DNA from: Candidatus Cloacimonadota bacterium
Lineage (GTDB): Bacteria > Cloacimonadota > Cloacimonadia > Cloacimonadales > Cloacimonadaceae
DNA: 64,000 nucleotides
Assembly: GCA_028706475.1 (NCBI GenBank)
Contig: JAQWBI010000001.1
Coordinates: 1-64,000, forward strand
Reading direction: 5' to 3'
Shown: piece by piece, positions 4,479 to 63,550 of the stretch
Layout: every line of letters starts with the position of its first letter
Numbering within the stretch: position 1 is the stretch's first letter
Notes under the pieces: model-generated
Seen by the model: the letters and a program-made list of their open reading frames with translations, nothing else
The model's database searches: none
What the model was told of the DNA's origin: nothing
Position numbers and translations under genes: made by a program

Positions 4479-6060
4479 TCACGATACTCTTTTGGCGACG
4501 ATACACTTTCCCGCCATCAGTAGATTGAGACTCCCACAAAACCAGATATAGACCACGCGGAGCGTAGCTACCACCGCTTTTCTTCCCATCCCAACATAGG
4601 ACTCCGCGATCCGCAATTTGCAGATTGTCCGCCAGGCTGATTACCTTGCGTCCATTCATATCCCAAATGCTGCAATTCACGCGGTTTGAGACTACCGGCA
4701 TATTGTAACTGATGTTTAGCACCTCACCATTGCGGACATCACAGGGAGATCCGAAGATTTTCAGGTACTCATTATGCTGCGGGAGGTCCTGACTTGTGTG
4801 GAAATTCTCTGCACAGGGGCTGGGTTCACCCAGGCGCCACATGACTTCTGTATCCTGTAAAACTCGTTGAAAAGACATCTCCGCGGTGCTGGAAACATAG
4901 GCCATTGAATCCAGCAAAGCGAATTCATCCCAGAGGTATAGGGCATCCCCGTCATTATTCAGCTGAGTCCAGGATTGTGCCTGCAGCACCAGAGCAGAGG
5001 GACATTGGGGATATTCTTCCAGAAAGCTTGCGGGATCGGAGCACAGCACGAAGTAGCCCGGTACATCCGGTAAATTGAAACTAATGCTTGCTCCAGATGC
5101 ATCATGGATTTGGTAGCTTCCCTTTGCAGAGGAAGCTGGGGCATACAGCTCTATCCATTCTTGTTTCCCTGGGAGTGGAGCAGGAAACACCTCGTTCAAG
5201 TGCGGAGCTTCTGCAAATTGCCCCAATACGCTGTAGTGCATGAGGTTATTATCTGTATCAAGATCGTTTTGATGTTCCAGAAACAGATACATCAATTCCA
5301 CATCTTCCGGCAGGATAAAGCTAAGCCTGATGCTGTCTCCCAGTGCCAGGGGCGGAAGCTCTTCCTGATGAAAGGCTTGCTCTCCATAATACGCGGTAAA
5401 CAGTGCATTGTAAGGGCTGGGATACGGACCCAGGTTTCGCACACCGATACTAAACTGACGGAAAGACTCCCCCGGTTCATAGGAAGGCCCATAGAGAGCT
5501 AGATCAGTGTAGACATGATTGTGTAGATTGGGGGTGGGATTCTGCTCAATCCGAAAGTCGTTGCCACACATATTGCTATCCCTGCCATCCACCACCCGCG
5601 CCAGAGAGCAACCTTCCGGAGCGTCCGGAGCAAAGCTGTAAGCCTCTGTGCCATAGTCGTCTGTGAGTAGATTTGTGTTTGGTTCATCGTAGATAATAGT
5701 ATCCGTGTAGGTGCTGTCGGAATTTACAAAGCGGATTCCGTCGCTAGCGCTGCCACCATTTTGAAAGTTGAGATTGGCATAGAACTGAGCATTTCCCATA
5801 CCCGTTCCTCCGATCATCACCATATAGCCTGGGCGTAACAGGAAATAGGGAAATTCGAATTGTTGGATCCAGGATGTGCCGCAACTATAAATCCTGGCAC
5901 CGGTTAGATCTACGGTTTCAGTACCGGGATTGTAGAGCTCGATCCATTCCTTGCCGCTATCTGCCCCCTCAGGATCGTAACATACTTCATTGATCACCAC
6001 TTGAGAGCCGAGACAGCCGTATATGAGCAGAAAAGCAAAGGTGAAAATGCAGGAGATCAC
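4471..6060 (-). CDS. Secreted lamin-tail-domain protein with C-terminal sorting domain
   Basis: Predicted exported or surface protein of 529 aa. A signal peptide at residues 1-20 is rich in I, F and L. A lamin-tail domain follows (VVINEVCYDP, then KEWIELYNPG), then a CARDB-like middle region, then a second lamin-tail domain (LNEVFPAPLPGKQEWIELYAP). The C-terminal FlgD-like/T9SS type-A-like domain contains VNCSIWDMNGRKV and GLYLVLWESQS. The start is placed at GTG 6060, whose GTGA overlaps the glgP stop. The longer open frame would run deep into glgP without a Shine-Dalgarno. Coupling to glgP is odd for a secreted protein. Its ligand is unknown. Confidence 0.75.
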   Translation of the reverse strand: MISCIFTFAFLLIYGCLGSQVVINEVCYDPEGADSGKEWIELYNPGTETVDLTGARIYSCGTSWIQQFEFPYFLLRPGYMVMIGGTGMGNAQFYANLNFQNGGSASDGIRFVNSDSTYTDTIIYDEPNTNLLTDDYGTEAYSFAPDAPEGCSLARVVDGRDSNMCGNDFRIEQNPTPNLHNHVYTDLALYGPSYEPGESFRQFSIGVRNLGPYPSPYNALFTAYYGEQAFHQEELPPLALGDSIRLSFILPEDVELMYLFLEHQNDLDTDNNLMHYSVLGQFAEAPHLNEVFPAPLPGKQEWIELYAPASSAKGSYQIHDASGASISFNLPDVPGYFVLCSDPASFLEEYPQCPSALVLQAQSWTQLNNDGDALYLWDEFALLDSMAYVSSTAEMSFQRVLQDTEVMWRLGEPSPCAENFHTSQDLPQHNEYLKIFGSPCDVRNGEVLNISYNMPVVSNRVNCSIWDMNGRKVISLADNLQIADRGVLCWDGKKSGGSYAPRGLYLVLWESQSTDGGKVYRRQKSIVIK

Positions 6061-8561: not shown

Positions 8562-8878
8562 AGTCAAATCCTTGATTTCAGCTCTTTTTACAGTAGCTTT
8601 GCAATAGGTTGTAAGGCAGGAATATCTGTCAAGTTCTTTATGCAGAAGCTATTGTTTACCCCCAGCAACCGAATGGAGCATTTGAATTGTATCGCTCCTC
8701 ATACCCTTTGTTTGATCCAGTATTGAAGCTGATATCAAGGTGTTATCATCCTGTGCTCACCCGATGATAACCCGATAATATCTGGTTCAAGTATCGATAA
8801 CCCAAAGAGGAATGAAGCTTCTGAATCTACTTGGAGTTTGCAGCCCAGTAGCATAACAACATTCATGCTGACGAGTCA
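8562..8878. other. Intergenic region with dispersed palindrome copy A
   Basis: No gene is seen. A TTGACA box on the minus strand (8632-8627) is a plausible -35 for glgP, although no good -10 follows. The 52-bp repeat core lies at 8731-8782, with further arms out to roughly 8690-8825. About 120 bp here is closely similar to the copy at 54361-54480. The block GACGAGTCACTA at 8870-8881 is identical at 54519-54530, and in both places it carries the stop codon of the minus-strand gene. Confidence 0.6.
8731..8782 (+). repeat. 52-bp dispersed palindromic element, copy A
   Basis: Layout is half-sites GATATCAAGGT and GTTATCATCCT, centre GTGCTCAC, then inverted half-sites CCGATGATAAC and CCGATAATATC: 11+11+8+11+11 bp. 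It lies between two co-directional minus-strand genes (glgP start, comEA-like stop). Flanking arms (TTTGTTTGAT left, ATCGATAACCCAAAG right) extend the symmetry. It is in the same orientation as copies C, D and F. Confidence 0.85.
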
Positions 8879-26871: not shown

Positions 26872-26923
26872 GATATCATCCCGTTATCATCGAGTGGTCA
26901 CTGCTTGATAACAGCTTTATATC
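26872..26923 (-). repeat. 52-bp dispersed palindromic element, copy B
   Basis: Half-sites GATATCATCCC and GTTATCATCGA, centre GTGGTCAC, then TGCTTGATAAC and AGCTTTATATC. It is in reversed orientation relative to copies A, C, D and F, because the AAGC-type arm is on the right. It lies between divergent genes. Flanks ATACATCAAGCAGTGCCGAAG and GGATCGGCAC continue the symmetry. Confidence 0.85.
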
Positions 26924-38222: not shown

Positions 38223-38274
38223 GATATCAAGCTGTTATCAAGCAGTGCTCACTCGATAATAACCCGATGATATC
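38223..38274 (+). repeat. 52-bp dispersed palindromic element, copy C
   Basis: Half-sites GATATCAAGCT and GTTATCAAGCA, centre GTGCTCAC, then TCGATAATAAC and CCGATGATATC. Flanks AGTTGAAGCT and TGCTTCATCACG continue the symmetry. It lies between divergent hydA and rrf2. Confidence 0.85.
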
Positions 38275-48613: not shown

Positions 48614-48665
48614 AATATAAAGCCGTTATCAAGCAGTGGTCACTCGATGATAACACGATGATATC
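48614..48665 (+). repeat. 52-bp dispersed palindromic element, copy D
   Basis: Half-sites AATATAAAGCC and GTTATCAAGCA, centre GTGGTCAC, then TCGATGATAAC and ACGATGATATC. The left flank ATACATCAAGTGGTACCGAAG matches that of copy B. Confidence 0.85.
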
Positions 48666-48781: not shown

Positions 48782-48812
48782 GTAAAAATATCGTATCAAT
48801 CAGGTGATATAT

Positions 48813-49289
48813 ATGGATAAACGTCCCTCCTGGCAGCAGTACTTCATGAAGATGGCATTTTTGGCATCCACCCGCAGTACCTGTCTGCGCCGAGCAGTTG
48901 GTGCCGCTTTGGTGCGGGATAATCAACTGATCTCCACCGGATACAATGGTAGCCCCAAAGGCAGTCCTCATTGCGCCGAAACCGGTTGTTTGAGAGAGCA
49001 GAACAACATCCCCTCCGGCGAGAAACACGAGCTTTGCCGTGGAGTTCATGCGGAGCAAAACGCCATCATTCAGGCGGCAATCAATGGCAGCAGCACACGC
49101 GGGGCGATTTTGTACTGTACTCACCAACCCTGCAGCATCTGCGCCAAGATGATCATAAATGCTGAAATCAAAACCGTTTACATTGCCAACTCCTATCCCG
49201 ATGAATTGGCCACCAACCTCTTCCGGGAATCCGGGATCGAGATGATCCTTTTGGATTTGGAAAGTGGGCACATGACAAGGATGACTTAA
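48813..49289 (+). CDS. dCMP deaminase (ComEB family)
   Basis: Zinc-dependent deamination of dCMP to dUMP, feeding dTMP synthesis. The 158-aa protein has the zinc/catalytic motif HAEQNAI (His and proton-shuttling Glu) and PCSICAKMI. GYNGSPKGSPHC is typical of the family. ATG 48813 is preferred to GTG 48804 on spacing from AGG. It complements dut at 61691 in dUMP supply. The ECF transporter genes follow within 1 nt. Confidence 0.9.
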   Translation: MDKRPSWQQYFMKMAFLASTRSTCLRRAVGAALVRDNQLISTGYNGSPKGSPHCAETGCLREQNNIPSGEKHELCRGVHAEQNAIIQAAINGSSTRGAILYCTHQPCSICAKMIINAEIKTVYIANSYPDELATNLFRESGIEMILLDLESGHMTRMT

Positions 49290-49290
49290 C

Positions 49291-49824
49291 TTGCTGAAAC
49301 ACTTCTCTGTGAAAGAATTGATCCTGATTGCATCCCTGGCGGCACTCGGTATTGCGGTGAAACCCTTGGTAGGGCCTATTTTCAAGCTTCTATCCCGCCC
49401 TTTGGGCATCCCTGGTGGTTCCTTTGCCGGAGGTTTCTATATGATGTGGCTGGTGTTAGCGATTGTAATCGTAAATAAACCCTTTACCGGCTTTATGTTT
49501 GGCCTCATCCAAGCGATCGGCGTGTTGATCTTTGGCATATCCGGCAATCAGGGTGCTTTATCGCTGATATCCTACACGGTTCCCGGCTTGGTGGCTGACT
49601 TGGTATATATGACCTTTGCCAAGCGTAACCACATACTTTCACAGATCTTTATATGCGCACTAGCCAATGGTGCCGGAGCCTTGATTTCGGTCTATGTAAT
49701 GTTTCGGCATCCGCCTCTTATCATGCTGATTGTATTGGCCATGGCGCTGGTTTCCGGGGCGGTGGGTGGAGTCTTAAGTTATGGAATCTATAAGAGTTTA
49801 AAAGAAACGAGGATGATACAATGA
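49291..49824 (+). CDS. ECF transporter substrate-binding (S) component
   Basis: Integral membrane vitamin-binding subunit of 177 aa with about six hydrophobic segments. The motifs PGGSFAGGFYMM, FTGFMFGLIQAIGVLIFG and YTVPGLVADLVYM resemble YkoE-like S components for thiamine precursors. The start is TTG 49291, just after the dCMP deaminase stop. The genes for A, A', T and a thiamine pyrophosphokinase follow in the same run, so thiamine or hydroxymethylpyrimidine is the likeliest substrate. That is context inference. Confidence 0.78.
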   Translation: MLKHFSVKELILIASLAALGIAVKPLVGPIFKLLSRPLGIPGGSFAGGFYMMWLVLAIVIVNKPFTGFMFGLIQAIGVLIFGISGNQGALSLISYTVPGLVADLVYMTFAKRNHILSQIFICALANGAGALISVYVMFRHPPLIMLIVLAMALVSGAVGGVLSYGIYKSLKETRMIQ

Positions 49825-50747
49825 GATACTATTTATTAATACTGATACTGGTTTTGATGGACCCCCTGGCGGCTCTGATTATTACTGACAATCAAGGCAT
49901 TAGCCACGAATATTCCTATGAACAATTCTTCAAGATACCAGCTCAGGAATTTTCTACCAGCAAGGAAGTGGATGGTGAGACCGTGATAAATACCTGGAAA
50001 GGCATACGCTTCGACACCTGGTTGAAAGAGCAGAATCTGGGCGATTTTGCCGTGATTAAGTTTCTATCCGGAGATCGTTACGAAGTAAAATTCAATAAAG
50101 CAGAATGGGATACTCTCACCTGCTTTTTGGCGCATACAGGCGAAGGCAATATCTTTCCCAATGAGCAACTTCGCATTATCTTCCCCCATCTGCGTAGCAT
50201 GTACTGGGTGCGGGATGTAAAGAGAATCTCCCTGGAACATTACAAAGAGATACCCATCCCTGTAAAGTTCTACTCTTTAGCAGAGTTTCTTTCCAAACAG
50301 GAACTTGTGCAGGATCCCAAACCCTTTGTGAAAATGAAGGGCTATCGCTTTGACGACTTTGTGGGAAAACTGAGCGACCTGCCGATCAAGGATGTGGTGA
50401 TATATAGCCGTGACGGTTTGATTCAGACGCTTGTGTACCCTTCGCAACTGGCGGGAGCGGTTTTAGAACTTACTGAAGAAGGTACATACAACGTGAAAAG
50501 TCCGCAAATCCCGGGTGGAATGTGGATGAAGAATATCAGCTATATTCAGGTGGATTATCAAGCGCTGATCGATACCTACAATGCCTCTGTCCTTGTACCT
50601 CTGGCAAAGGCACTTCAGTGGCAGTTGAGCCCGAATGTAAAGCTGAATATGCACTTCCCCCGTGCCACGGAAGTGATGGAATTGGGAGACGTTCTGGCAG
50701 AGCCAATGCTCTTGAATGATACCCTATATTTCGAGCTTGTTCCCTAA
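49821..50747 (+). CDS. Secreted protein with two sulfite-oxidase-like repeats, ECF-associated
   Basis: The 308-aa protein has a signal peptide (RYYLLILILVLMDPLAA). Two similar units follow: WKGIRFDTWLKEQNLGDFAV with FLSGDRYEVKF, and MKGYRFDDFVGKLSDLPIKD with YSRDGLIQTLVYP. They recall the SUOX-like fold of molybdopterin-binding domains, without a clear cofactor Cys in place. The start overlaps the S-component stop as ATGA and the A-component gene follows, so it probably acts with the transporter outside the membrane. The assignment is tentative. Confidence 0.6.
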   Translation: MRYYLLILILVLMDPLAALIITDNQGISHEYSYEQFFKIPAQEFSTSKEVDGETVINTWKGIRFDTWLKEQNLGDFAVIKFLSGDRYEVKFNKAEWDTLTCFLAHTGEGNIFPNEQLRIIFPHLRSMYWVRDVKRISLEHYKEIPIPVKFYSLAEFLSKQELVQDPKPFVKMKGYRFDDFVGKLSDLPIKDVVIYSRDGLIQTLVYPSQLAGAVLELTEEGTYNVKSPQIPGGMWMKNISYIQVDYQALIDTYNASVLVPLAKALQWQLSPNVKLNMHFPRATEVMELGDVLAEPMLLNDTLYFELVP

Positions 50748-50754
50748 ACTTCAG

Positions 50755-51411
50755 ATGCGCGAGCTGGAGCTACAATTTCCCGATGCTCCGGCAACCCTGT
50801 TTCAAGGCTTGAATCTGGACTTGGACGCAGGGCAAATCCTAGTGATCTCAGGAGGCAATTCCAGCGGTAAAAGTAGCCTGATCAATTGCCTGTGCGGCAT
50901 TATCCCAAAAGGGATCCCGGCTCGTGTGTCCGGAAGTATCCGCTGGGGAGACCGCAGTCTGAAAGAAATCCCGTTGTGCGAAATATACCGCTTCATCAGC
51001 CTTGCTCCAGCTGAAACAAGAGAGCAGATGCTGATGCCCACAGTAGAACTGGAACTGGCTTTCGCACTGGAAAATATGGGCTTGCCACCCTCCGAGATAC
51101 GCAAGCGCATTGATAGCGCTGCAGATCGTTTTGGCATATATCATTTGCTGCAAGCTGCACCGCAGAACCTTAGCGGAGGTGAACAGCGTTTGCTGCTTTG
51201 TGCTATATGCGATTCCATGCAAAACCCGGTATTGCTGATGGATGAGCCCGAAACAGGGCTGTCCGAAAGCTCACTGGCGCTGCTCTGCGAATGGCTAATG
51301 GAACTGCGCAAACTGGGGAAGGGAATCGTGTTGGCCAGCCACAATCCGCACATCATTAGCATGGCTGATAGCCGGATTCATCTGGAGAAGACAAGTGTTC
51401 ACCCTGCATAA
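50755..51411 (+). CDS. ECF transporter ATPase (A)
   Basis: ABC ATPase of 218 aa. Walker A is GGNSSGKSS, the signature LSGGEQR, Walker B PVLLMDEPETGL, and the switch His is in ASHNPH. The start is uncertain: ATG 50755 gives a normal domain length. ATG 50716 would overlap the upstream gene by 32 nt and add 13 residues. It ends inside the second ATPase gene (17-nt overlap). Confidence 0.85.
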   Translation: MRELELQFPDAPATLFQGLNLDLDAGQILVISGGNSSGKSSLINCLCGIIPKGIPARVSGSIRWGDRSLKEIPLCEIYRFISLAPAETREQMLMPTVELELAFALENMGLPPSEIRKRIDSAADRFGIYHLLQAAPQNLSGGEQRLLLCAICDSMQNPVLLMDEPETGLSESSLALLCEWLMELRKLGKGIVLASHNPHIISMADSRIHLEKTSVHPA

Positions 51412-51970
51412 GCTTGGCTTTACCTATCCTGAGCGGGAAGCACTGTTTACGGCGCTATCACACCATTTCAACAGGGAAGAAAACATCCTGCTGTGTGGAG
51501 AAAACGGCAGCGGTAAAAGTACGCTGCTGAAGCTTTTGTGCGGTAAACTGAGTCCCAATGCAGGAAAGATAGACACTTGTGAGCATCCCTTGTTTTACCT
51601 GCCTCAGGAGGCTGACGGAAGGATATTGGGGATCACTCTGGAGCAGGATCTTAGCATCTGGCAGATGGCCGGTATGGCTGTGGATGCGGTAAAAGGACAT
51701 GCTCTGATGCAGGGTTTTGGCGATATCTGGCGCTTACCTCTGCGGGAGTTATCCAAAGGCACCCGGCAGTGCTATCTTCTAAGCCTTGCCTTGTGTTTAA
51801 AGGATCACTATCTGGTTTTGGATGAGCCCTTTACTGCTCTGGACAACGATCGCAGAAAGCTGTTGGCGGATTTATTGGCTCTGCGCAAAGGGATGCTGAT
51901 CGTAAGCCACATCCAGGGACTGCTGATACCGGATAGAACACTTTTGCTAGCGGAAGGAAAGCTGGTGTGA
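51395..51970 (+). CDS. ECF transporter ATPase (A')
   Basis: Second ABC ATPase, short at 191 aa. Walker A is GENGSGKST, and the signature is degenerate, LSKGTRQ. Walker B is YLVLDEPFTAL, and the switch His is in VSHI. The start is GTG 51395, with GGAG upstream. The GTGA overlap with the T component shows translational coupling. The two different ATPases suggest a heterodimer as in EcfAA'. Confidence 0.85.
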   Translation: MFTLHKLGFTYPEREALFTALSHHFNREENILLCGENGSGKSTLLKLLCGKLSPNAGKIDTCEHPLFYLPQEADGRILGITLEQDLSIWQMAGMAVDAVKGHALMQGFGDIWRLPLRELSKGTRQCYLLSLALCLKDHYLVLDEPFTALDNDRRKLLADLLALRKGMLIVSHIQGLLIPDRTLLLAEGKLV

Positions 51971-52692
51971 AGCGGCTTTTACATCCTCTGAGCTTTTTTG
52001 TACTTTGTGTGTTTTACAGCAGCCTTGCCATCATCTTGCAGAGTCCGGATTCACTCCTGATCGTCTTTTTCCTGGCCTGGCTGTGCGAGTATCGCAGCGG
52101 AGCAAAAGCGCTGTGGAACAGATTACTTGGGCTCAAAAAGCTGATGTGGCTGGTGCTGAGTTTGGTGATTATCCAGCTACTCTTTCGCAAGGGAGGGGGC
52201 ATCGCACTGGATCTGGGCATCGTGCACATCCATAACTACGCTCTGGTAAGCAGTGCCTTTCTATCTCTACGCATCCTGATCATCTACCTTTGTGCCATCA
52301 GCCTCAGTGGAATGGATTTCAGCCAGTACAGAGCCGCATTTGCCGCACTGAATCTGCCTGAGGAGATATCATTTATGATATCCTACATGGCGCAATTGAT
52401 CCCCTATTATAGCGGAAAGTTCAAGGAACAGATGCAAGAGCTGAGGGACCGCGGAATCAGTATTCGCCGCTTGAGAATGAATGATAAGCTTCAGATTTAT
52501 AAGATCCTGGCCATCACGGCCATTGCGGATATCATCATGATGAGCGGCAGGCAAGCCATTGCTTTGGAGATCAGAGGTTTTCGCAGCAAGGGGAAACGCA
52601 GCAGTTTGAACCGCTATGCCTTTGGACTGTATGACCTTGGCATCCTGCTTTGGATACTGGGAGTTGCAGTGCTGATCTACCGTTTATCATGA
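51967..52692 (+). CDS. ECF transporter transmembrane (T) component
   Basis: The 241-aa integral membrane scaffold has about five hydrophobic helices. Two Arg-Gly motifs in the C-terminal cytosolic region, RDRGISIRR and EIRGFRSKG, match the ATPase-coupling helices of EcfT. The start is GTG 51967, overlapping the A' stop. With S, A and A' it makes a self-contained transporter in one operon. Confidence 0.85.
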   Translation: MKRLLHPLSFFVLCVFYSSLAIILQSPDSLLIVFFLAWLCEYRSGAKALWNRLLGLKKLMWLVLSLVIIQLLFRKGGGIALDLGIVHIHNYALVSSAFLSLRILIIYLCAISLSGMDFSQYRAAFAALNLPEEISFMISYMAQLIPYYSGKFKEQMQELRDRGISIRRLRMNDKLQIYKILAITAIADIIMMSGRQAIALEIRGFRSKGKRSSLNRYAFGLYDLGILLWILGVAVLIYRLS

Positions 52693-52718
52693 TCTTGGAA
52701 TATTAATTGCATCATAGT

Positions 52719-53609
52719 ATGAATGTTATGACAGAACAACAAGATACAAAGATTATCAACAATAATGAATTAAGTCCCACAGGCTTGGGAGAATTGCGTC
52801 CAGAGAAGGGACCCTTGTATGCCAAATTGGCGATACTGCTGCTTTTGCTGGTGCTTTCAGCCGGATTTGGTTACCTAATGAACGCGATGTCGGAAAGCCG
52901 CAAGCTTGCTCTTTTGGAAGAAGAGAACAGGCTTTTGCGCGCCAAAATAGAGCTCTACGATGCCACGGTCGATTCCATCCACTGCATGCTTGATTCCCTG
53001 GGTCTGAAGAGTGAAAAGAAGAACAATCCTGCTCTCTATCGCGGTGGAGCAAGCCTCACAAATCATAGTTTCGCTGATCCAAAACTGAAACTGAAGATTG
53101 AAGATACCGAGAAGAAACTGGTTCATATCATGCAGGTTTTGGTACCAAATCTCCCTGAAAGCCCTCTTCTGCAAGAGGACACAGAGATCGTGGATGGAGA
53201 TATCCCCTCGATATATCCCACTTTCGGTCGCATCTCAGACGCCTGGGGCACTCGCATTCACCCCATCACAAACAGTCTGGAATTTCATTATGGTATAGAC
53301 ATCGCCAATGAGATGGGAACTCCAGTCTATGCTACAGCTGCGGGCACAGTAGTTTATGCCGATTATGATGATGGCTATGGCAAACGGATACTGGTGGATC
53401 ATGGCAATGGTTATCGCAGTATGTATGCCCATCTCTATACCTCCCGCGTAAAGGCAGGCGAGACCGTTACAAAAGGGCAGATCATCGCTCTGATGGGCAA
53501 TAGCGGGCTCTCCACCGGGCCACACCTGCATTATGAAGTGCACCTGAACGAACGCAAGGTGAATCCGGCAAACTACCTCAACCGCGTGGACCGCTATGCT
53601 ATGCGCTGA
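52719..53609 (+). CDS. M23-family (LytM) peptidase, membrane-anchored
   Basis: Predicted cell-wall endopeptidase or amidase-activator of about 296 aa. One membrane helix is near residues 35-55 (LAILLLLLVLSAGFGYL). A coiled coil follows (LLEEENRLLRAKIELYD). The C-terminal LytM domain has HYGIDIANEMGTPVYA (H-x3-D) and GPHLHYEV. The zinc His residues are intact, so it may be active. Starts at ATG 52719 or 52728 are both possible; no strong Shine-Dalgarno decides. Confidence 0.85.
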   Translation: MNVMTEQQDTKIINNNELSPTGLGELRPEKGPLYAKLAILLLLLVLSAGFGYLMNAMSESRKLALLEEENRLLRAKIELYDATVDSIHCMLDSLGLKSEKKNNPALYRGGASLTNHSFADPKLKLKIEDTEKKLVHIMQVLVPNLPESPLLQEDTEIVDGDIPSIYPTFGRISDAWGTRIHPITNSLEFHYGIDIANEMGTPVYATAAGTVVYADYDDGYGKRILVDHGNGYRSMYAHLYTSRVKAGETVTKGQIIALMGNSGLSTGPHLHYEVHLNERKVNPANYLNRVDRYAMR

Positions 53610-54234
53610 TAAGAGCGCATGGTTGATCACCAATCATGCTCCGAATAGGATTCTCTCCTCATATACCGGCATCGATGGCGATATTATAGCTGTGGATGGC
53701 GGGCTGCAAACCGTCTTTGAACAAAAGCTTTCACCCAAGATAATTGTAGGAGATCTGGATTCGCTCAATCCGGCTTTATTTAATGAGTATCCGGATACAC
53801 CCCTGTTGCGTCATGAATCCCGCAAGAATGCCACGGACACCGAATTGGCGCTGGATTGGTGTGTAACGCAGGGATATACCCGCATAATTATCTGCAATGA
53901 TATGCAGGGACGCTTTGATCACTGTCTGGCAATCGTTCAGAACCTTCTTGATCTGCACCGGCAAGGGATCATGGCATTCATAGAGAGCGATAGCCAGCGC
54001 ATCTTCTTCATTCGGGAATCACTGACATTGAAGGGTAAAAAGGGAGATTTGCTCTCGCTGGTTGCCTACAGTCCCTGCGTGTGTTTCATTGCGTCCGAGG
54101 GGCTTGAGTATCCGCTGAAAGGCCTTAGGATACATCAACACCAAAGCCGCGGCATCAGCAATGTGTTTGACCGAGAAGAGATCAGCCTGAAAGTGGCAGA
54201 AGGTGAGGTTCTGGCTATATATACCCCGCTGTAG
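53596..54234 (+). CDS. thiN: Thiamine pyrophosphokinase
   Basis: Converts thiamine to thiamine diphosphate. The 212-aa protein has AVDGGLQTV, IIVGDLDSL, RKNATDTELALDW, and the C-terminal Ser/Gly-rich RGISNVF thiamine site. ATG 53596 overlaps the peptidase stop by 14 nt; TTG 53623 is an alternative. Its place at the end of the ECF run suggests imported thiamine is trapped by phosphorylation. Confidence 0.9.
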   Translation: MLCADKSAWLITNHAPNRILSSYTGIDGDIIAVDGGLQTVFEQKLSPKIIVGDLDSLNPALFNEYPDTPLLRHESRKNATDTELALDWCVTQGYTRIIICNDMQGRFDHCLAIVQNLLDLHRQGIMAFIESDSQRIFFIRESLTLKGKKGDLLSLVAYSPCVCFIASEGLEYPLKGLRIHQHQSRGISNVFDREEISLKVAEGEVLAIYTPL

Positions 54235-54527
54235 GGCTTGCGGACTATATATAGAACCGGTGTTTGCCGTATATACTATCTAGGGTCATGTCAAGCTAGG
54301 TATGGGAATATCTGTAATACCACAGCAACCGAGGGCAACTTGTGAATTCCTCCTCTTTCCCTTTGTTTGATACAGTGTTGAAGCTGATATCAAGCCGTTA
54401 TCATCCTGTGTTCACTCGATGATAACCCGATAATATCAGGTTCAAGTATCGATAAACCAAAGGGGGAATGAAGCTTTTGCATCGTTCTGTAGAAGTATCT
54501 GCAAAATTGGAGTTCAGCGACGAGTCA
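54235..54527. other. Convergent intergenic region with palindrome copy F
   Basis: No gene is seen. The 52-bp core at 54386-54437 has arms reaching roughly 54345-54480, nearly matching copy A. The last bases GACGAGTCACTA (54519-54530) repeat 8870-8881 and contain the SNase stop codon. No clear terminator for thiN was found; the palindrome itself could serve. Confidence 0.55.
54386..54437 (+). repeat. 52-bp dispersed palindromic element, copy F
   Basis: Half-sites GATATCAAGCC and GTTATCATCCT, centre GTGTTCAC, then TCGATGATAAC and CCGATAATATC. It lies between convergent thiN and the nuclease gene. Confidence 0.85.
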
Positions 54528-63498: not shown

Positions 63499-63550
63499 GA
63501 TATCATCCCGTTATTATCGAGTGAGCACTGGATGATAACGCCTTTATATC
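63499..63550 (-). repeat. 52-bp dispersed palindromic element, copy E
   Basis: Half-sites GATATCATCCC and GTTATTATCGA, centre GTGAGCAC, then TGGATGATAAC and GCCTTTATATC. Orientation is reversed like copy B. The right flank AGCTTCGGCACTGCTTGA matches the arm of copy B. Confidence 0.85.

Follow-up and report, generated by a model that had tools for sequence, protein, structure and literature searches.

Vitamin B12 is taken up by the BtuB-BtuF-BtuCD system, in which a TonB receptor, a periplasmic binder and an ABC-type pump are combined with a cofactor riboswitch. To our knowledge, the molybdenum- or tungsten-pterin cofactor (Moco or Tuco) is usually regarded as self-made by every organism that uses it. 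Here we describe a run of overlapping genes for an energy-coupling factor (ECF) transporter, located in a stretch of 64,000 nucleotides (the window; contig JAQWBI010000001.1 of assembly GCA_028706475.1) from a Candidatus Cloacimonadota bacterium, in which the components S, A, A' and T are encoded together with a secreted protein, designated P. The S component shares its fold and Pfam family with YkoE (5edl) of the YkoEDC system, and in both cases dedicated A and T genes stand in the operon. Unlike YkoEDC, the window system has an S of a separate clade (the divergent S) in which the thiamine contacts are replaced, a secreted P, two short ATPases, and a context of Moco rather than thiamine pyrophosphate (TPP) riboswitches. 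P resembles PruR (7kom, 7rkb) in being a secreted SUOX-fold protein that lacks a molybdenum-ligating cysteine and carries an N/D-x-Y motif, its motif being a candidate pterin contact, but it consists of two fused domains and is partnered with an ECF transporter, whereas PruR is found with DcpA or sensor kinases. The S-P-A-A'-T set is quite probably a dedicated importer of the tungsten- or molybdenum-pterin cofactor, in which P would serve to capture the ligand in the periplasm. By analogy, such an importer may work like BtuB-BtuF-BtuCD in its receptor-binder-pump-riboswitch arrangement, although the binder fold is unrelated, the pump is an ECF instead of a type II ABC transporter, and the cofactor is different.

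The association of P with S was surveyed in 125 Cloacimonadota genomes, which are mostly metagenome-assembled and phylogenetically non-independent. The PF09819 proteins of this set split into two classes: 12 loci, at 103-110 bits, are canonical YkoE, and 83 loci, at 34-71 bits and including that of the window, are divergent; in a tree with Clostridial relatives, a long branch with a support of 100/100 separates divergent S from canonical YkoE. P was found in 71 of the 125 genomes and lies directly downstream of S at 65 of the 83 divergent loci and at none of the 12 canonical ones, which accounts for 65 of the 82 P copies. P travels with the divergent S subfamily, and since it occurs in so many genomes and most of its copies directly follow a divergent S, the pairing of S with this SUOX protein is not due to chance. 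An earlier reading made from the sequence alone (hereafter the sequence-only reading) had proposed that P may be a substrate-capturing accessory subunit, an idea that would have been refuted if its homologues occurred mostly away from ECF genes; the survey revealed the opposite distribution, and both the coupling to S and the PruR-like structure support the proposal.

The N-terminus of P is hydrophobic and signal-like. The window copy matches PF00174 weakly (0.015), while relatives exceed the cut-off of 24 bits with 27.8 and 34 bits, and the two halves of P align with each other in a profile comparison (E = 1e-4), which confirms the two SUOX-like repeats already read from the sequence. Searches with the P sequence returned nothing useful from the PDB and no match in a plasmid collection. 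The structure prediction that had been suggested as a check gave an AlphaFold model with a pLDDT of 93 and a pTM of 0.67, whose top Foldseek match was PruR (7kom; E 4.8e-7, probability 1.00), followed by SUOX enzymes including MsrP/YedY. PruR is a signalling protein that binds monapterin and neopterin; it has no molybdenum-ligating cysteine and contacts the pterin through an Asn/Asp-x-Tyr motif (PMC13259868). In P, D85 (49 of 49 sequences) and Y87 (48 of 49) form a D85-x-Y87 motif that aligns to the N-x-Y of PruR, and the conserved W129 and W235 are candidate counterparts of Trp160 of PruR. With the SUOX-family molybdoenzymes (MsrP/YedY, SoxC, SorA) P shares the fold and a weak profile similarity, but no metal-ligating cysteine is conserved among the P sequences, the best cysteine column reaching 15 of 49. 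Because such a cysteine is missing and a PruR-type motif is aligned, P more likely binds the cofactor than uses it.

Genomic context analyses revealed riboswitches of the Moco/Tuco family (RF01055) in 75 of the 125 genomes, and these lie directly upstream of 38 of the 83 divergent S loci but of none of the 12 canonical YkoE loci. The P3 stem was absent from the three riboswitch alignments inspected, and 20 of 22 riboswitch sequences have a linker of at most about 4 bases at the place of P3, as read by eye (a regular expression matched only some of them). Riboswitches without P3 track the tungsten cofactor (Regulski et al. 2008, PMC2408646), and the metal of the proposed cofactor would more likely be tungsten than molybdenum. 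The window genome, a Cloacimonadota-type draft of 2.06 Mb with a single copy of P, contains two of these riboswitches, one (G000:C6:19973-20090) before a lipoprotein and a TonB-dependent receptor, and the other (G000:C20:29597-29718, corresponding to L113:11598-11719) before an ALDH-type aldehyde dehydrogenase (L113 9923-11551, strand -). A riboswitch-ALDH pair also stands beside the transporter operon of Geosporobacter (L208:13544-15403), and the riboswitch-led ALDH may be a cofactor-independent stand-in for the tungsten enzyme AOR. In family f10, as exemplified by L039, a riboswitch (4530-4655) is followed by a lipoprotein, S, P, a second lipoprotein, a single SUOX-like anchored protein, A, A', a TonB receptor and T. 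The first lipoprotein and the receptor of L039 are homologous to those of the riboswitch locus of the window genome (E about 1e-18 and 1e-102 to 1e-104, respectively), and because the f10 operon joins S-P-A-A'-T with this same lipoprotein and receptor, the window operon is tied to the cofactor regulon.

The need for import is indicated by the distribution of the cofactor pathway, for which the genes surveyed were those of MoaC and MoeA. MoaC was found in 3 and MoeA in 2 of the 125 genomes, while both were present in 11 of 14 controls; neither was found when searched for in the window genome, and divergent S and P are both missing from the three genomes with MoaC. Genes of the tungsten-pterin enzyme family AOR were nevertheless present in 83 of the 125 genomes, including that of the window (L114), and this presence of AOR while MoaC and MoeA are nearly absent suggests that the bacterium, as most of its phylum, cannot make the cofactor and has to import it. 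Fisher odds ratios, calculated ignoring kinship, were 59 for S and P, 23 for S and the riboswitch, 11 for P and AOR, and 7 for S and AOR, against 1.0 for canonical YkoE and AOR. The four members of the window's genus that have no S and P also have no AOR and no riboswitch.

Gene anatomy, fold relations, co-occurrence, the riboswitch context of relatives and the absence of MoaC and MoeA are the sequence-based grounds from which we infer the ligand, the metal, and the passing of the ligand by P to S. In the proposed mechanism, the riboswitch-controlled TonB-dependent receptor and lipoprotein, encoded elsewhere in the genome, would carry the cofactor over the outer membrane; P, with two putatively pterin-binding domains of the SUOX/PruR type that have no metal-ligating cysteine, would capture it in the periplasm and hand it to S; S with T-A-A' would then take it into the cell, driven by ATP as in group I ECF transporters; and the cofactor would finally go into AOR-type enzymes, bypassing the MoaC and MoeA steps. 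No published example of such a cofactor transporter was found. It is rather likely that the system represents a dedicated prokaryotic importer of the intact tungsten/molybdenum-pterin cofactor, that most Cloacimonadota are auxotrophs fed by their community, and that an ECF transporter has here gained a capture subunit and a TonB receptor. If so, the cofactor would be a new shared currency of anaerobic communities, tungsten enzymes in organisms without the cofactor pathway would be accounted for, and proteins that may hold this fragile cofactor outside the cell would be of relevance to ideas of Moco replacement. With a capture protein, a receptor and a riboswitch named, the question of cofactor import becomes directly testable.

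Several observations weigh against this proposal. The window operon itself has no RF01055 riboswitch, even at E 10, and a degenerate form also sought upstream of it was not found; elsewhere in the window's genus no RF01055 was found at an S locus. A subset of family 13 carries S without P. Sixteen genomes have S but no AOR, and 13 AOR genomes, some of them more than 95% complete, have neither S nor MoaC; a more sensitive search for S in these 13 exceptions and in seven other genomes found none. Outside the phylum, where 17 of 18 genomes tested belong, MoaC was present in 14 of the 18. As some genera of family f1 (G010, G011, G015, G046-G049) retain the riboswitch at S, the simplest view is that the window's genus lost it at this locus. 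The exceptions between S and AOR could stem from gaps in the assemblies, from the use of other enzymes or from different routes, and given MoaC in 14 of the 18 genomes, import there would serve salvage and not be the sole supply.

Among the alternatives, import of a different pterin or of an unfinished precursor (metal-free molybdopterin, cPMP, or a monapterin- or folate-like pterin) fares best, although it too is unlikely. It is favoured by the resemblance of P to PruR, whose ligands are such pterins (PMC13259868), but known enzymes could not finish the precursors without MoaC and MoeA, and the Moco riboswitch points to Moco or Tuco. The relatives outside Cloacimonadota bear on this point as well. 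A scan of a genome collection with S gave 259 relatives; among the 80 that were kept, 17 from outside Cloacimonadota were examined, and nearly all of these belong to Clostridia or other Bacillota. In several of them the S operon holds as many as four genes for SUOX proteins, together with genes for a nucleotide-pyrophosphatase-like protein, for MobB and for a small protein resembling kinases. A Moco riboswitch lies at or beside the S operon in L194, L200, L208, L210 and L211. The Clostridial S-SUOX-riboswitch operons are an independent replicate of the system and count in favour of cofactor import. The combination of MobB with a nucleotide-pyrophosphatase-like gene fits Moco dinucleotides, which the pyrophosphatase could trim outside the cell.

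A second alternative, that P is a molybdenum or tungsten enzyme or a PruR-like pterin sensor and thus a bystander in the operon with no part in transport, is very unlikely. The SUOX fold, the signalling role of PruR (PMC13259868) and the 17 of 82 P copies that stand apart from S would agree with it. The low conservation of cysteine described above is at odds with an enzyme, and neither DcpA nor a DTB sensor kinase, the operon partners of PruR, was found beside P; no cyclic di-GMP or kinase partner is adjacent, and the neighbours are ECF genes. Most P copies (65 of 82) show the coupling to S. Among the other 17, a Moco riboswitch stands no more than 6 kb away in 8 cases, and two of those inspected have a TonB receptor alongside.

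The sequence-only reading had linked the transporter to thiamine, and although its description of a complete ECF transporter with a YkoE-like S and a coupled P was borne out, the thiamine link is very probably wrong. Under this explanation the transporter would import thiamine or a thiamine precursor, P would be a thiamine-capturing accessory, and ThiN would convert the import to TPP, in line with the YkoE fold of S and with the position of ThiN at the close of the same gene run in the window's genus. The S sequence had no match in the PDB, and YkoE was reached by structural search only: the AlphaFold model of S (pLDDT 89) matched 5edl best (E 6e-4, TM 0.78). YkoE contacts thiamine through Y46, W49, E77, Q95 and D131 (PMC5037267). 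The first, second, third and fourth of these align to G47, Y50, V78 and P98 of the window S in a remote alignment whose positions are approximate, and the canonical YkoE of Cloacimonadota retains the contact Trp and Gln; by this alignment, divergent S appears to have lost the thiamine contacts. A TPP riboswitch was found within 5 kb of none of the 83 divergent S loci but of 6 of the 12 canonical YkoE loci. In the window genome the TPP riboswitch precedes Thi4 and ThiC, and therefore the host appears to make thiamine de novo. ThiN was present in 100 of the 125 genomes whether or not they have the transporter, including the four transporter-less members of the genus, and in G036, G037, G043, G045 and G001 the M23-ThiN pair is neither interrupted nor flanked by the transporter. 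In G045 (L215), one of these four genus members, the order is AroA, ComEB, M23, ThiN, with the S-to-T block cleanly absent, and G001 carries ThiN-M23 at an unlinked position; because these neighbours occur without it, the transporter is a separable module and ThiN is a neighbour. A SUOX/PruR-fold partner and Moco riboswitches would moreover make no sense for thiamine. A thiamine transporter was thus rejected on its riboswitch context, its residues and separate clade, the independence of ThiN and the de novo pathway.

Import of molybdate or tungstate, suggested by the frequent control of molybdate transporters by Moco riboswitches (PMC2408646), is scarcely credible, since the metal by itself would be useless without MoaC and MoeA and since the YkoE fold of S and the PruR fold of its partner are those of proteins that bind small organic molecules.

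Table. Genes of the transporter run and its neighbours, with positions in the window.
Feature	Position	Strand	Evidence
ComEB-type (ComEB-like) dCMP deaminase, upstream neighbour, outside the transporter	48804..49289	+	PF00383 7.9e-27
S component (TTG start) of the divergent subfamily with YkoE fold, proposed cofactor-binding membrane subunit	49291..49824	+	PF09819 4.8e-15; structural match 5edl
P, secreted two-repeat SUOX/PruR-like protein	49821..50747	+	AlphaFold and Foldseek; internal repeat
A, ECF ATPase	50716..51411	+	ABC_tran 8e-18; TIGR04520 ECF_ATPase_1 1e-27, below cut-off
A', second, short ECF ATPase	51395..51970	+	ABC_tran 5.5e-17; signature LSKGT instead of LSGGQ
T, CbiQ-like coupling membrane protein	51967..52692	+	CbiQ PF02361 4e-13
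M23 peptidase, neighbour, outside the transporter	52707..53609	+	PF01551 7.5e-36
ThiN thiamine pyrophosphokinase, neighbour, outside the transporter	53596..54234	+	TPK_catalytic 8e-23; TIGR01378 8e-36, over cut-off

The open reading frames listed form one run, with overlaps, in the order of the table, and together with the Pfam and NCBIfam matches they reproduce the layout proposed before, with thiN last after the peptidase gene. The gene run given earlier as 48813-54234 stands, except that its start falls inside the deaminase gene and outside the transporter. S and P overlap by ATGA, consistent with the translational coupling proposed for the secreted protein between S and A, and A' and T overlap by GTGA; the A frame contains an internal Met just past the stop of P. 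The S fold, the two PF00005 ATPases, the PF02361 protein and the contiguous encoding of dedicated S, A and T characterize a group I ECF transporter, and the overlapping, contiguous arrangement of the transporter genes is conserved across Cloacimonadota.

Further accessory genes were seen in S operons. In two Cloacimonadota families (L103:6626-7999 and L104:4765-6117) no P stands beside S; instead these loci, which follow a Moco riboswitch, encode a secreted phosphodiesterase-like protein and a small anchored protein in the interval from S to A. Among Clostridia, the S operons of L192, L193, L188 and L208 encode further SUOX-like proteins, and that of L192 also encodes a two-component-propeller protein, an FMN-binding and SUOX protein, a nucleotide-pyrophosphatase-like protein, MobB and an APH-like kinase. 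The window contains six copies of a near-palindromic element (GTTATCA...TCACTCGATGATAAC), where none is expected by chance, at 8742-8771, 26883-26912, 38234-38263, 48625-48654, 54397-54426 and 63510-63539. It is possibly a repeat like the repetitive extragenic palindromic (REP) elements or the miniature inverted-repeat transposable elements (MITE), and the gene run stands between two of its copies, those at 48625 and 54397.

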